Below are positions 51,878 through 54,687 of a stretch of DNA of 64,000 nt, one piece after another; position 1 is the first letter of the stretch; the number at the start of each line of letters is the position of its first letter. The stretch is from Ruegeria sp. HKCCD7303 (GTDB lineage Bacteria; Pseudomonadota; Alphaproteobacteria; Rhodobacterales; Rhodobacteraceae). The position numbers were made by a program, and so were the translations under genes. The notes under the pieces are model-generated. The model did no database searches. It was not told the DNA's origin and saw only the letters and a program-made list of their open reading frames with translations. Location of the stretch: positions 124,001-188,000 of the forward strand of contig NZ_WVRE01000004.1 in NCBI RefSeq assembly GCF_013111185.1, in the 5' to 3' direction.

Positions 51878-52196
51878 GGTAGTAAACCCCTAAAAACAGG
51901 GTAAAAAAGGCGCCGAAGCGCATTCAGCGCCTTTTTTCGATATTGCAGGGGCTTCAGCCCGGAAAAAACCAGACAGACTTGGACTGCGTCTTACAGGCGG
52001 TGATGCTGTCGCGGCTTCAATACCCCTCTGGAAACGAAAATGATCAAGGGCACCGGGAAGTGCTTCGCAACAGTGTAATCAGATCAAACGGTTGGTTCTT
52101 AAACCTTGGTTTTTTTCAACCGCGCACAACGCCAACCAACCCGATCACAGCGTGCCAAAAACACACTCTGCACATCTTCACGCTCAGTTGGAAAGA
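51878..52196. other. 319-bp gap between DUF2478 gene and tRNA-Tyr
   Basis: It holds the terminator at 51903-51937 and the 3' flank of tRNA-Tyr, which is read on the minus strand. I see no gene in it. Confidence 0.5.
51903..51937. terminator. Bidirectional Rho-independent terminator
   Basis: AAAAAAGGCGC pairs perfectly with GCGCCTTTTTT around a 13-base loop. On the plus strand it ends the DUF2478 transcript; on the minus strand it could end the tRNA-Tyr transcript. Confidence 0.88.
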
Positions 52197-52280
52197 TGGT
52201 GGGCGACCCTGGAATCGAACCAGGCGTGCGTCTCCGCGAGGGAGTTACAGTCCCCTGCCACACCTTGCGGCCTGTCGCCC
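52197..52280 (-). tRNA. tRNA-Tyr (GTA)
   Basis: On the minus strand the 5' acceptor GGGCGAC (52280-52274) pairs with GTCGCCC near the 3' end, the anticodon loop CTGTAAC gives anticodon GTA, a long class II variable arm is present and the T loop reads GGTTCGATTCC. The discriminator A and CCA are encoded in the DNA (52200-52197). Confidence 0.95.
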
Positions 52281-52396
52281 ACTGTCAGGCGTTGCACCTG
52301 ACGTGGAGGCGTGATTACTAGCGCACCAAAGGAGCGTCAACAGGAAAATTTCGCTTTGGCGCAGGAAACCGAATTCTCGGCCCGGAGGCCCATAAA

Positions 52397-53167
52397 ATGA
52401 AGAAACCCAAATGGGTCGTCGAAAAGGAACAGGCGCGTAAAGCCGCTGCGGCCGAAACCGTCTGGCTGTTCGGCTTGCATGCGGTGCGGGATGCTTTGAT
52501 GAACCCAAATCGTCAGAAATTGCGCCTGATCGTGACACGTAACGCCCGTGACAAGCTGGCGGAAGCCATTGAATTTGCTGGGATTGAAGCCGAGATGGTT
52601 GATCCACGCAAGTTCACCGCGCCTATTGATGCTGGTTCGGTTCACCAGGGTGCTGCGCTTGAGGTCAAGCCGTTGGATTGGGGCGGTCTGGCCGAAAACT
52701 GTATTGGACGGGAAAACCCAAGAGTCATTCTGCTGGACCGAGTGACTGATCCACATAACGTTGGGGCGATTCTGCGCTCAGCCGAAGTTTTGGGGGCCAG
52801 CGCTGTGATAGGTACGCGGCATCACTCTGCACCTGAAACAGGGGCGCTGGCCAAAACCGCCAGCGGTGCGCTGGAACGCCAACCATATTTGCGGGTGCGC
52901 AACCTTGCAGACGCGATCATCGAGCTTCAGGGCATGGGGTTTCTGGTTCTTGGACTGGACGGCGAAGCCGATATGACGATCGAAGGTGCGTTGGTCGAGG
53001 GGCATGATCGCCCCGTGGCGCTTGTGCTTGGTGCCGAAGGCCCGGGCTTGCGGCAGAAGACCAAAGAAACCGTCGATCAGTTGGTGAAAATTGACGCAGC
53101 AGGCGGGTTTGGGTCACTGAATGTCTCAAACGCGGCGGCAATCGCCTTATATGCATCTCGTTCCTGA
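52397..53167 (+). CDS. rlmB: 23S rRNA (guanosine-2'-O)-methyltransferase RlmB
   Basis: SpoU/TrmH-family methyltransferase of 256 residues. The N-terminal L30e-like RNA-binding domain (about 20-95, VWLFGLHAVRDALMN) is followed by the knotted SPOUT domain with motif 1 RVTDPHNVGAILRSAEVLGA, motif 2 VLGAEGPGL and motif 3 SLNVSNAAAIALY. It modifies G2251 of 23S rRNA. It is divergent from tRNA-Tyr, and a short zinc-ribbon gene follows 15 bases after its stop. Confidence 0.93.
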   Translation: MKKPKWVVEKEQARKAAAAETVWLFGLHAVRDALMNPNRQKLRLIVTRNARDKLAEAIEFAGIEAEMVDPRKFTAPIDAGSVHQGAALEVKPLDWGGLAENCIGRENPRVILLDRVTDPHNVGAILRSAEVLGASAVIGTRHHSAPETGALAKTASGALERQPYLRVRNLADAIIELQGMGFLVLGLDGEADMTIEGALVEGHDRPVALVLGAEGPGLRQKTKETVDQLVKIDAAGGFGSLNVSNAAAIALYASRS

Positions 53168-53182
53168 GCAAAGGAGAGCGCC

Positions 53183-53464
53183 ATTTCCGGTCCATCCAAA
53201 ATCGCCACCTGCTGTTATTGCGGCACTCGTGCGGCCCTGGTCCTGAAGGGAAAAGAGCGGCATGAGCTTAGCTGTTCAAGCTGCGGTGCTCCGCTACATG
53301 ATCTCAAGATGATTCCAAAGCGTAAGGCCGTGAAAGAAAAACAGGCGCGACCTGCCGTGTCTCATATGGTGCATTCAAGGGCAAAACGTAAAAAGAAGAA
53401 AAAGAGCGTGTTCTCACGTGTGTTTGACGAAGCCTGGGACGTGATTGAGGATATTTTCGACTAG
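53183..53464 (+). CDS. Small zinc-ribbon protein with apparent ATT start codon
   Basis: Frame of 94 codons giving 93 residues. Two CxxC pairs (residues 10-13 and 31-34, in TCCYCGT and SCSSCGA) make a zinc ribbon, followed by a lysine-rich stretch (RAKRKKKKS) and an acidic C-terminus (VFDEAWDVIEDIFD). Between the rlmB stop (53165-53167) and the first CxxC there is no in-frame ATG, GTG or TTG; only ATT at 53183 stands seven bases after a strong AAGGAG (53171-53176). I therefore infer an ATT start. It is probably co-transcribed with rlmB. Nucleic-acid binding is likely, function unknown. Confidence 0.7.
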   Translation: MSGPSKIATCCYCGTRAALVLKGKERHELSCSSCGAPLHDLKMIPKRKAVKEKQARPAVSHMVHSRAKRKKKKKSVFSRVFDEAWDVIEDIFD

Positions 53465-53532
53465 GCGCCCTTGCGTTGAAACTCGATCACATCCTTGTCA
53501 ACGGGGCTTCCGTTACCGCCGAAAACTTGCAT
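53461..53532 (-). CDS. Putative 23-residue peptide convergent with the zinc-ribbon gene
   Basis: On the minus strand, ATG at 53532 opens 23 codons (MQVFGGNGSPVDKDVI... to RKGA) with GAGGT about seven bases upstream, a good ribosome-binding site. Its TAG stop shares the tetranucleotide CTAG (53461-53464) with the stop of the zinc-ribbon gene, an arrangement also used by two other convergent pairs in this window. No homologue is recognised. It may be a genuine small protein; chance cannot be ruled out. Confidence 0.4.
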   Translation of the reverse strand: MQVFGGNGSPVDKDVIEFQRKGA

Positions 53533-53561
53533 GTTGATACCTCAAGACTCCAGATTCTGAC

Positions 53562-54020
53562 GTGGCGATGCTGATCCAACGTTCCATCCTTGGCGCGCTA
53601 AGCGCTGTATTCCTTTCTTCTGCCGTTTCCGCGCAGGACAATCCCGTCTATTTCGCCACCGAAGGTGTGGCGATGGCCGGGTATGATCCCGTGACCTACT
53701 TCGAAGGCGCGACGCCCGTTATGGGTGCCCCGGAAAACGCTGTGATGTGGAAAGGGGCAAAATGGCATTTTTCATCTGCGGAAAACCGAGAGCGCTTTGA
53801 AAGCAACCCCCGGGCCTTTGCTCCGCAGTTTGGCGGGTATTGTTCTTACGCGATGGCCAAAGGGGTTCTGAAAAGCACCGATCCCAATGCGTGGCAGGTG
53901 GTCGATGGCCGCCTGTATCTGACGCACTCAAAGCAGATTGAGATGATGTGGCAGCAGGATAGGGCGGAATTCATTGAAATGGCAGAAGAAAACTGGCCGG
54001 TGATCTTGTACCACAACTAG
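53562..54020 (+). CDS. Exported YHS domain protein
   Basis: Protein of 152 residues with a signal peptide (ILGALSAVFLSSAVSA) and a YHS domain of the kind seen in small metal-binding periplasmic proteins; GVAMAGYDPVTYFEG and FGGYCSYAMAKG are the family's conserved segments. In some relatives the Cys of GGYC is selenocysteine; here it is an ordinary TGT cysteine. The start is the GTG at 53562 or the ATG at 53568. Copper binding is suspected for the family but not shown. Confidence 0.85.
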   Translation: MAMLIQRSILGALSAVFLSSAVSAQDNPVYFATEGVAMAGYDPVTYFEGATPVMGAPENAVMWKGAKWHFSSAENRERFESNPRAFAPQFGGYCSYAMAKGVLKSTDPNAWQVVDGRLYLTHSKQIEMMWQQDRAEFIEMAEENWPVILYHN

Positions 54021-54160
54021 GCAAGAATCAGCTAATTGTGAAAAGTCATCACAAAAATGCGCGCCCCCTCTTTTTTTTCACCAACTCATGCCTAAATGTC
54101 ACAGTGACCGCGGAACGGAACTGCCGCGGGTCATTTCACTGTCCCTCGTTCCAACAACTG

Positions 54161-54188
54161 GCGCCCAAGCTGTCTTGGGCGCTTTTTT
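54161..54188 (+). terminator. Rho-independent terminator of YHS gene
   Basis: Nine-bp stem GCGCCCAAG/CTTGGGCGC with loop CTGT, followed by six T residues and then CTTTT. It lies 140 bases after the YHS gene, so the transcript has a long 3' tail. Confidence 0.9.
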
Positions 54189-54216
54189 CTTTTGATAACC
54201 CTGTTAAGGATAGGGC

Positions 54217-54687
54217 ATGTCAAATTATCCCGATCAGCACCTCAAGACCATTCTGCAACGCACCAAGACGGTTGCCGTTGTAGGAGTGTCGTTGAACCCT
54301 GTGCGACCCAGTTTCTACGTGGCGCGCTATCTAACCTTGAAGGGATTTGATGTGATCCCGGTCAATCCGGGCCATGCAGGCAAAGACCTATTCGGTCAGA
54401 CAGTGCGAGGTAGTCTTTCGGACATAACCGAGCCTGTGGATATGGTGGATATTTTTCGGCGGTCCGAAGCTGTGCCGCCTATCGTTGACGAAGCTCTGGA
54501 CGTTTTTCCCTCTCTCAGCACGATTTGGATGCAGATCGGGGTTGAACATGCCGAAGCGGAGGCAAAGGCCGAAGCACGGGGCGTTGACGTAGTGATGAAC
54601 CGCTGTCCCAAGATCGAGTATCAGCGCCTGTTTGGCGAGCTGCGCATGGGCGGATTTTCGACCGGAATCATCTCGTCCAAACTTTAG
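54217..54687 (+). CDS. CoA-binding domain protein (YccU-like)
   Basis: Protein of 156 residues with a single CoA_binding_2 Rossmann domain (PF13380); VAVVGVSLNPVRPSFYVARYL is the nucleotide-binding loop and the later WMQIGVEH and VVMNRCPKIEY segments are conserved. It resembles the CoA-binding part of succinyl-CoA synthetase without the catalytic part. Cytosolic, function unknown. Its stop shares TTAG with the convergent lipoprotein gene. Confidence 0.88.
   Translation: MSNYPDQHLKTILQRTKTVAVVGVSLNPVRPSFYVARYLTLKGFDVIPVNPGHAGKDLFGQTVRGSLSDITEPVDMVDIFRRSEAVPPIVDEALDVFPSLSTIWMQIGVEHAEAEAKAEARGVDVVMNRCPKIEYQRLFGELRMGGFSTGIISSKL

Follow-up and report, generated by a model that had tools for sequence, protein, structure and literature searches.

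The question raised by this locus is where translation begins in a small zinc-ribbon gene that follows rlmB in Ruegeria sp. HKCCD7303 and, if it begins at AUU, what such a codon does there. The stretch analysed, hereafter the window, is 64,000 nucleotides long. Few bacterial genes are known to carry AUU-class starts by design. The stop codon of rlmB is a TGA (53165-53167), and a stop-to-stop frame of 98 codons (53168-53464) begins directly after it, in the same frame; its translation opens with A-K-E-S-A-I-S-G-P-S-K-I-A-T-C-C-Y-C-G... and it ends at the stop codon of the zinc-ribbon gene (53462-53464). The initial annotation had stated that no ATG, GTG or TTG precedes the first CxxC pair in this frame and that an ATT lies at ideal distance from an AAGGAG. 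Both statements hold when the window is read codon by codon: no canonical codon is present before the first CxxC, and the ATT, located 15 nt downstream of the rlmB stop, is separated from AAGGAG by a 6-nt spacer (Table 1). In an ORF list restricted to ATG, GTG and TTG, this frame yields a sole ORF of at least 40 aa (53309-53464, 51 aa), devoid of both CxxC pairs; the loss of the zinc ribbon from such a list is a blind spot.

The genome itself is a draft (23 contigs, 4.62 Mb, completeness estimate of 100%) and contains a single match to the zinc-ribbon protein. A tRNA-Tyr (GTA) gene located on the minus strand (window positions 52197-52280) lies upstream of rlmB and is divergent from it. The downstream neighbour (53562-54020), which has a GTG start in the ORF list, encodes a YHS domain-containing (seleno)protein (NF041384, 147.5 bits). 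A sigma-70 consensus scan did not detect any promoter-like site in 52100-54250. The RNA fold around the ATT start is nothing unusual (z of -0.12 and 0.09), and these values led to the rejection of any special RNA structure there.

Table 1. Features of the rlmB/zinc-ribbon locus (window coordinates)
Feature	Position	Strand	Evidence or remark
rlmB, 23S rRNA (guanosine(2251)-2'-O)-methyltransferase, upstream gene	52397..53167	+	TIGR00186, 181.7 bits (cut-off 160.15)
Shine-Dalgarno AAGGAG, 6-nt spacer to start	53171..53176	+	AGGA invariant in 50/50 distinct genus sequences
ATT (AUU) start codon	53183..53185	+	Window sequence; genus column counts; no canonical codon upstream
Zinc-ribbon protein gene, 93 aa + stop	53183..53464	+	dN/dS ~0.05 over 41 codons
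Zinc ribbon	53210..53284	+	Cys codons at 53210, 53219, 53273 and 53282 (residues 10, 13, 31 and 34)
Lysine/arginine-rich stretch, K68-K74	53384..53404	+	K74 at least 90% conserved (aligned members)
C-terminal acidic helix, residues 77-91, within ...EAWDVIEDIFD	53411..53455	+	Predicted helix, low-confidence model
First in-frame canonical start (ATG)	53309..53311	+	Would drop the zinc ribbon

Within Ruegeria, the gene was matched in 53 of 54 genomes, G320 being the sole genome devoid of a match. Its start codon is ATT in 50 of these 53 genomes, ATC in one (L117), ATA in one (L156) and ATG in one (L161, the genus copy least similar to that of the window). In 49 genomes, ATT occupies the exactly homologous codon, and in L160 it is found one codon further out. 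A near-cognate codon (ATT, ATC or ATA) is thus kept across species in 52 of the 53 genomes, but not family-wide. As this conservation in effect excludes a base error in the window genome, a sequencing error at ATT was rejected. Columns were counted on 50 distinct genus sequences, from which L144, L160 and L161 are omitted (shifted spacing, or ATG). The A and T of the start codon are invariant in all 50 sequences and its third base is T in 48; AGGA is found at -11 to -8 in 50/50, and the bases flanking it vary. The Ile codon of 'KIAT', located six codons on and used as a control, is ATC in 30 of the same sequences, ATT in 19 and ATA in 1. The bias of the start towards a third-base T, compared with this codon, gives a Fisher p of 2.6e-10, a value that overstates the difference as the sequences are related.

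The protein encoded downstream of this ATT is strongly conserved. An alignment of 51 members (the window plus 50 of 80 loci) shows no variation at cysteines 10, 13, 31 and 34, which form two CxxC knuckles, or at K6, I7, H27, P37, D86, D90 and D93, the C-terminal residue. Over the 41 codons between the ATT and the next in-frame ATG, mean dN is 0.067 and mean dS 1.24 among 49 distinct genus sequences, for a dN/dS of about 0.05 (557 of 1,176 pairs, the 619 saturated pairs being dropped; L139, L144, L160 (no LKM) and L161 left out beforehand). Since dN is far below dS there, the segment that precedes the ATG is under selection at the protein level, and the zinc-ribbon frame is, as judged from these comparisons, a real gene. 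The proposal of the initial annotation that this gene starts at ATT therefore finds support in the conservation of the codon in the genus, in the 31 of 53 genomes where no canonical codon is available and in the purifying selection acting upstream of the ATG.

On the window protein, all Pfam and NCBIfam models stay below their cut-offs. The TFIIB-type zinc ribbon PF08271 resembles it by the presence of two CxxC knuckles, but its score of 14.6 bits is far under the gathering cut-off of 29; weak matches to this model (E of 0.1 or less, best 9.5e-5) were obtained for 31 of the 51 members, and similarly weak ones to DUF7351 for 36 of the 51 (best 0.001). Membership in a curated zinc-ribbon family was rejected, as the window protein falls under all cut-offs. 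The predicted structure is weak (mean pLDDT 64.5, pTM 0.31), and a PDB sequence search did not give any significant match, the best one (E of 0.26) being a probable translation initiation factor 2 beta subunit. The combination of a zinc ribbon, a lysine-rich stretch and a predicted acidic C-terminal helix suggests a low-copy factor that would bind nucleic acid or the ribosome.

At larger scale, a protein match was found in 132 of 295 genomes of the family; in the order, a profile matched 142 of 244 genomes, and all those listed, matching or not, belong to the same family; six of 337 genomes drawn from the class match, two of them outside the family. The start was read in 127 of the 132 matching family genomes (G076, G246, G008, G293 and G206 being left out). 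Visual reading of the five of the 127 that lack the search motif pattern gave ATG in every case. Elsewhere, an ATG, GTG or TTG lying 4 to 11 codons before the first Cys was taken as the start or else an ATT, ATC or ATA (collectively ATH) lying 8 to 10 codons before it. When each genus is represented by one genome, the 126 genera comprise 97 with ATG, 9 with ATT, 6 with ATC, 8 with TTG, 5 with GTG and one (L240) with an ATG further upstream; five further genera with a match lie outside this count. ATT or ATC is found at the homologous codon in 14 of the 125 genera other than Ruegeria, and 12 of the 15 ATT/ATC genera (that of the window included) do not have any canonical codon back to the stop, the exceptions being L028, L163 and L172. 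Homologues with a different start codon, which the initial annotation had named as evidence against its reading, do occur in most other genera, where ATG is present at or near the homologous codon (97/126); in the genus, the start is ATT in 50 of 53 genomes. This ATG marks the position as the start site without proving ATT wrong in Ruegeria. It also indicates that the protein can do without a weak start.

The 247 distinct loci (a set that omits the five genomes read by eye and includes 30 selected, non-random extra loci; L340 does not have the motif) carry ATG in 148 cases, ATT in 62, ATC in 18, TTG in 9, GTG in 7 and ATA in 1; the two for which the rule does not give a start (L240 and L336) have an ATG further upstream. 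The 81 distinct ATH loci include six from Tateyamaria (ATC), one from Aestuariivita (ATC) and one from Sedimentitalea (L056, ATT), a genus of which two other loci, L064 and L104, have ATG. A canonical codon is present elsewhere back to the stop in seven ATH loci from outside Ruegeria (L028, L110, L163, L172, L292, L302 and L331). The best tree with 219 tips, built on partial RlmB together with the zinc-ribbon protein, has 15 changes of the canonical/ATH label, no direction being inferred, and after the collapse of low-support branches at least 11, 9 and 5 changes are left for SH-aLRT under 80, 90 and 95, respectively. Switches are also seen within genera. The nine genomes of genus g55 (L319 and L322-L329) have ATC in 4, ATT in 1 and ATG in 4, two of the ATG genomes sharing an identical start region, and the four of genus g210 (L317 and L330-L332) have TTG, GTG, ATT and TTG at the same start site. 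The unusual trait of this family is a start codon that, at one fixed place, wanders among AUG, GUG, UUG and AUH, and g55 provides a natural series for start-codon tests.

Of the 81 ATH loci, 70 have a Shine-Dalgarno match of at least 5 bases, against 53 of the 148 ATG loci, 5 of the 7 GTG loci and 7 of the 9 TTG loci. The association between ATH and a strong Shine-Dalgarno sequence is thus large in raw counts, but it is not significant over the 7 supported independent pairs (median p of 0.625); the pattern therefore fits compensation for a weak codon, yet may be due to inheritance. In 75 of the 81 ATH loci, a distance of 9-23 nt separates the start from the rlmB stop that precedes it, which makes coupling to rlmB plausible. 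The RlmB motif was recognized upstream of the gene in 193 of 217 distinct loci, the other 24 lacking it or having failed the pattern. Re-initiation is IF3-sensitive in E. coli, according to the available text of one study (PMC2268962).

Other origins of the zinc-ribbon frame have to be weighed against initiation at AUU. The frame of the window continues in frame past the rlmB TGA and could thus encode an extension of RlmB made by stop-codon read-through or frameshifting. However, just 92 of the 193 loci have both genes in the same frame, the rlmB frame is open into the zinc motif in none of the 193 (the 24 of 217 loci without RlmB motif being uncounted), and what is conserved is precisely the Shine-Dalgarno sequence and the start position; this origin is barely credible, and RlmB fusion or read-through was rejected on these counts. 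Another view would be that only a short C-terminal protein is made from the ATG at 53309, as the sole canonical-start ORF of at least 40 aa in the frame, and that the zinc ribbon is a relic, but a relic is extremely improbable given four cysteines invariant in 51 aligned members and a dN/dS of 0.054 upstream of that ATG. Initiation could also occur inside the end of rlmB, at an in-frame ATG located 20 codons before the first Cys that is open in 21 of the 53 genus genomes; an ATG at 20 or 21 codons is likewise found in 5 of 29 ATH loci from outside the genus. We regard this as very improbable: in 31 of the 53 genomes, that of the window included, a stop cuts the frame and not a single canonical codon remains before the first Cys (the one genome outside these two groups is L161), and the same absence back to the stop is seen in 53 of the 81 distinct ATH loci. 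Moreover, this ATG falls where rlmB encodes ...LYAS, as read from the sequence, and AGGA-N7-ATT is kept in both groups, i.e. with and without the upstream ATG.

A more serious alternative accepts AUU as the real start but denies it any regulatory meaning: a tiny need for the protein would tolerate a weak codon acquired by drift, with the help of a strong Shine-Dalgarno sequence and of re-initiation by ribosomes leaving rlmB. The starts that are in flux in g55 (ATC 4, ATT 1 and ATG 4 of 9) and g210 (TTG 2, GTG 1 and ATT 1 of 4) speak for it, as does the short distance to the rlmB stop in 75 of 81 ATH loci. On the other hand, 48 of 50 Ruegeria sequences keep T as the third base though the spacer and nearby wobble bases vary, and a single change would be sufficient to turn ATT into ATG. 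Furthermore, a survey of 61,358 ancestral AUG starts reports, in its available part, only 1 switch to AUU (PMC5622118); at such a rate, the recurrence of AUU in one family is not ordinary drift. Absence of any regulatory meaning is therefore judged unlikely, although clearly less so than the three other alternatives.

The explanation that we consider probable is that AUU is the real start of a conserved 93-residue zinc-ribbon protein and that it throttles the synthesis of this protein, presumably through discrimination by IF3. Sequence comparison shows where the start lies, that AUU is conserved and that the protein is under selection; the throttle and the IF3 step are suggested by analogy. 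Because the ATT start has been kept in nearly all related species examined, a built-in brake on the amount of protein is probable. The following model can be drawn. The fMet-tRNA would read AUU with a third-base mismatch, and the strong, ideally spaced Shine-Dalgarno sequence, with or without ribosomes arriving from rlmB 15 nt upstream, would offset the weak codon and lead to low-level synthesis. AUU would thus keep the zinc-ribbon protein scarce relative to RlmB and would render its synthesis sensitive to IF3, as is the case for infC in E. coli. The flips between ATC, ATT and ATG in g55 count against the throttle, as they fit relaxed selection as well as regulation.

The infC gene provides a yardstick for the IF3 step. 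IF3 disfavours non-AUG initiation complexes, and its autoregulation of infC is established in E. coli, where infC expression falls with rising IF3. In Ruegeria, all 30 infC loci read (L259-L288, the best-scoring 30 of 54) have an ATA start preceded by AAAGGA, as does the infC of the window genome (L289). The leader caaaggaatgaaccc is almost invariant in these 30 loci and in the same genome, one base differing in L287. In other genera of the family, ATA was found in 28 of 30 loci (the best-scoring 30 of 114 matching genomes), ATC in 1, and one was not read. Since infC starts with ATA, non-AUG initiation is in use in these genomes, and the retention of a non-AUG start in infC is as expected for IF3 autoregulation. 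By analogy, IF3 is probably linked to the zinc-ribbon gene as well. Higher IF3 is said to repress non-canonical starts in E. coli by a paper that cites others on this point in its available text (PMC2268962). A bolder extension, quite unlikely in our opinion, is that the zinc-ribbon gene and infC would form a small roseobacter set whose non-AUG starts read out the fidelity of initiation. The protein would act on the ribosome or rRNA beside RlmB, its output would track the balance of IF3 to ribosomes and the switching between AUG, AUU and AUC would be an adaptive re-tuning.

A single start site that carries AUG, GUG, UUG, AUU, AUC or AUA depending on the lineage, with AUU near-fixed in Ruegeria (53 species covered), amounts to a natural experiment, which bears on the effects of near-cognate starts and on IF3 control beyond infC. 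In the literature covered, which mostly excludes subscription journals, nothing was found on non-canonical starts in Ruegeria or on a zinc ribbon associated with rlmB in Rhodobacter. The available text of a proteogenomic study of Ruegeria pomeroyi gives ATG, GTG and TTG as the initiators of proteins with N-terminal peptides (PMC3305630). Its Table 1 includes SPO_PG011, an unannotated conserved protein of 97 residues detected by mass spectrometry (3 peptides, 61% coverage), which could be the R. pomeroyi homologue of the zinc-ribbon gene.

Known genes with comparable starts share some of these traits. Like the zinc-ribbon gene, infC of E. coli has a near-cognate start, as does infC of Ruegeria itself. 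It differs in that its product is IF3 itself, so that the loop is autoregulatory, and in the range of the trait, infC being non-AUG in 29 of the best-scoring 30 loci from other genera whereas the start of the zinc-ribbon gene is non-AUG in some lineages only. In E. coli pcnB, an AUU start limits the synthesis of a scarce protein, poly(A) polymerase; the start codon is the same as that of the zinc-ribbon gene, but the protein is unrelated. The nearest published parallel that was found is cvfC1 of Staphylococcus aureus, set beside the window gene by description and not by sequence. According to the available part of its report (PMC13009471), it encodes a small potential zinc-finger protein, with an AUU start conserved in staphylococci and a very strong Shine-Dalgarno sequence. 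It is, however, the first gene of a different operon, is 61 aa long and belongs to another phylum. The same source indicates that the AUU start of cvfC1 reduces reporter output and that, in poor medium, AUU and AUA starts yield about 10% of the AUG level in S. aureus reporters. In Listeria reporters, the order of starts is ATG, ATA and ATT in the available text of PMC13068326. With infC, pcnB, cvfC1 and ccpN, the window gene shares a conserved near-cognate start and the absence of a usable canonical codon, and the strong Shine-Dalgarno sequence at fixed spacing that characterizes this class is also present (AGGA in 50/50). Taken as a whole, the zinc-ribbon gene joins the very small known class of bacterial genes with AUU-class starts.
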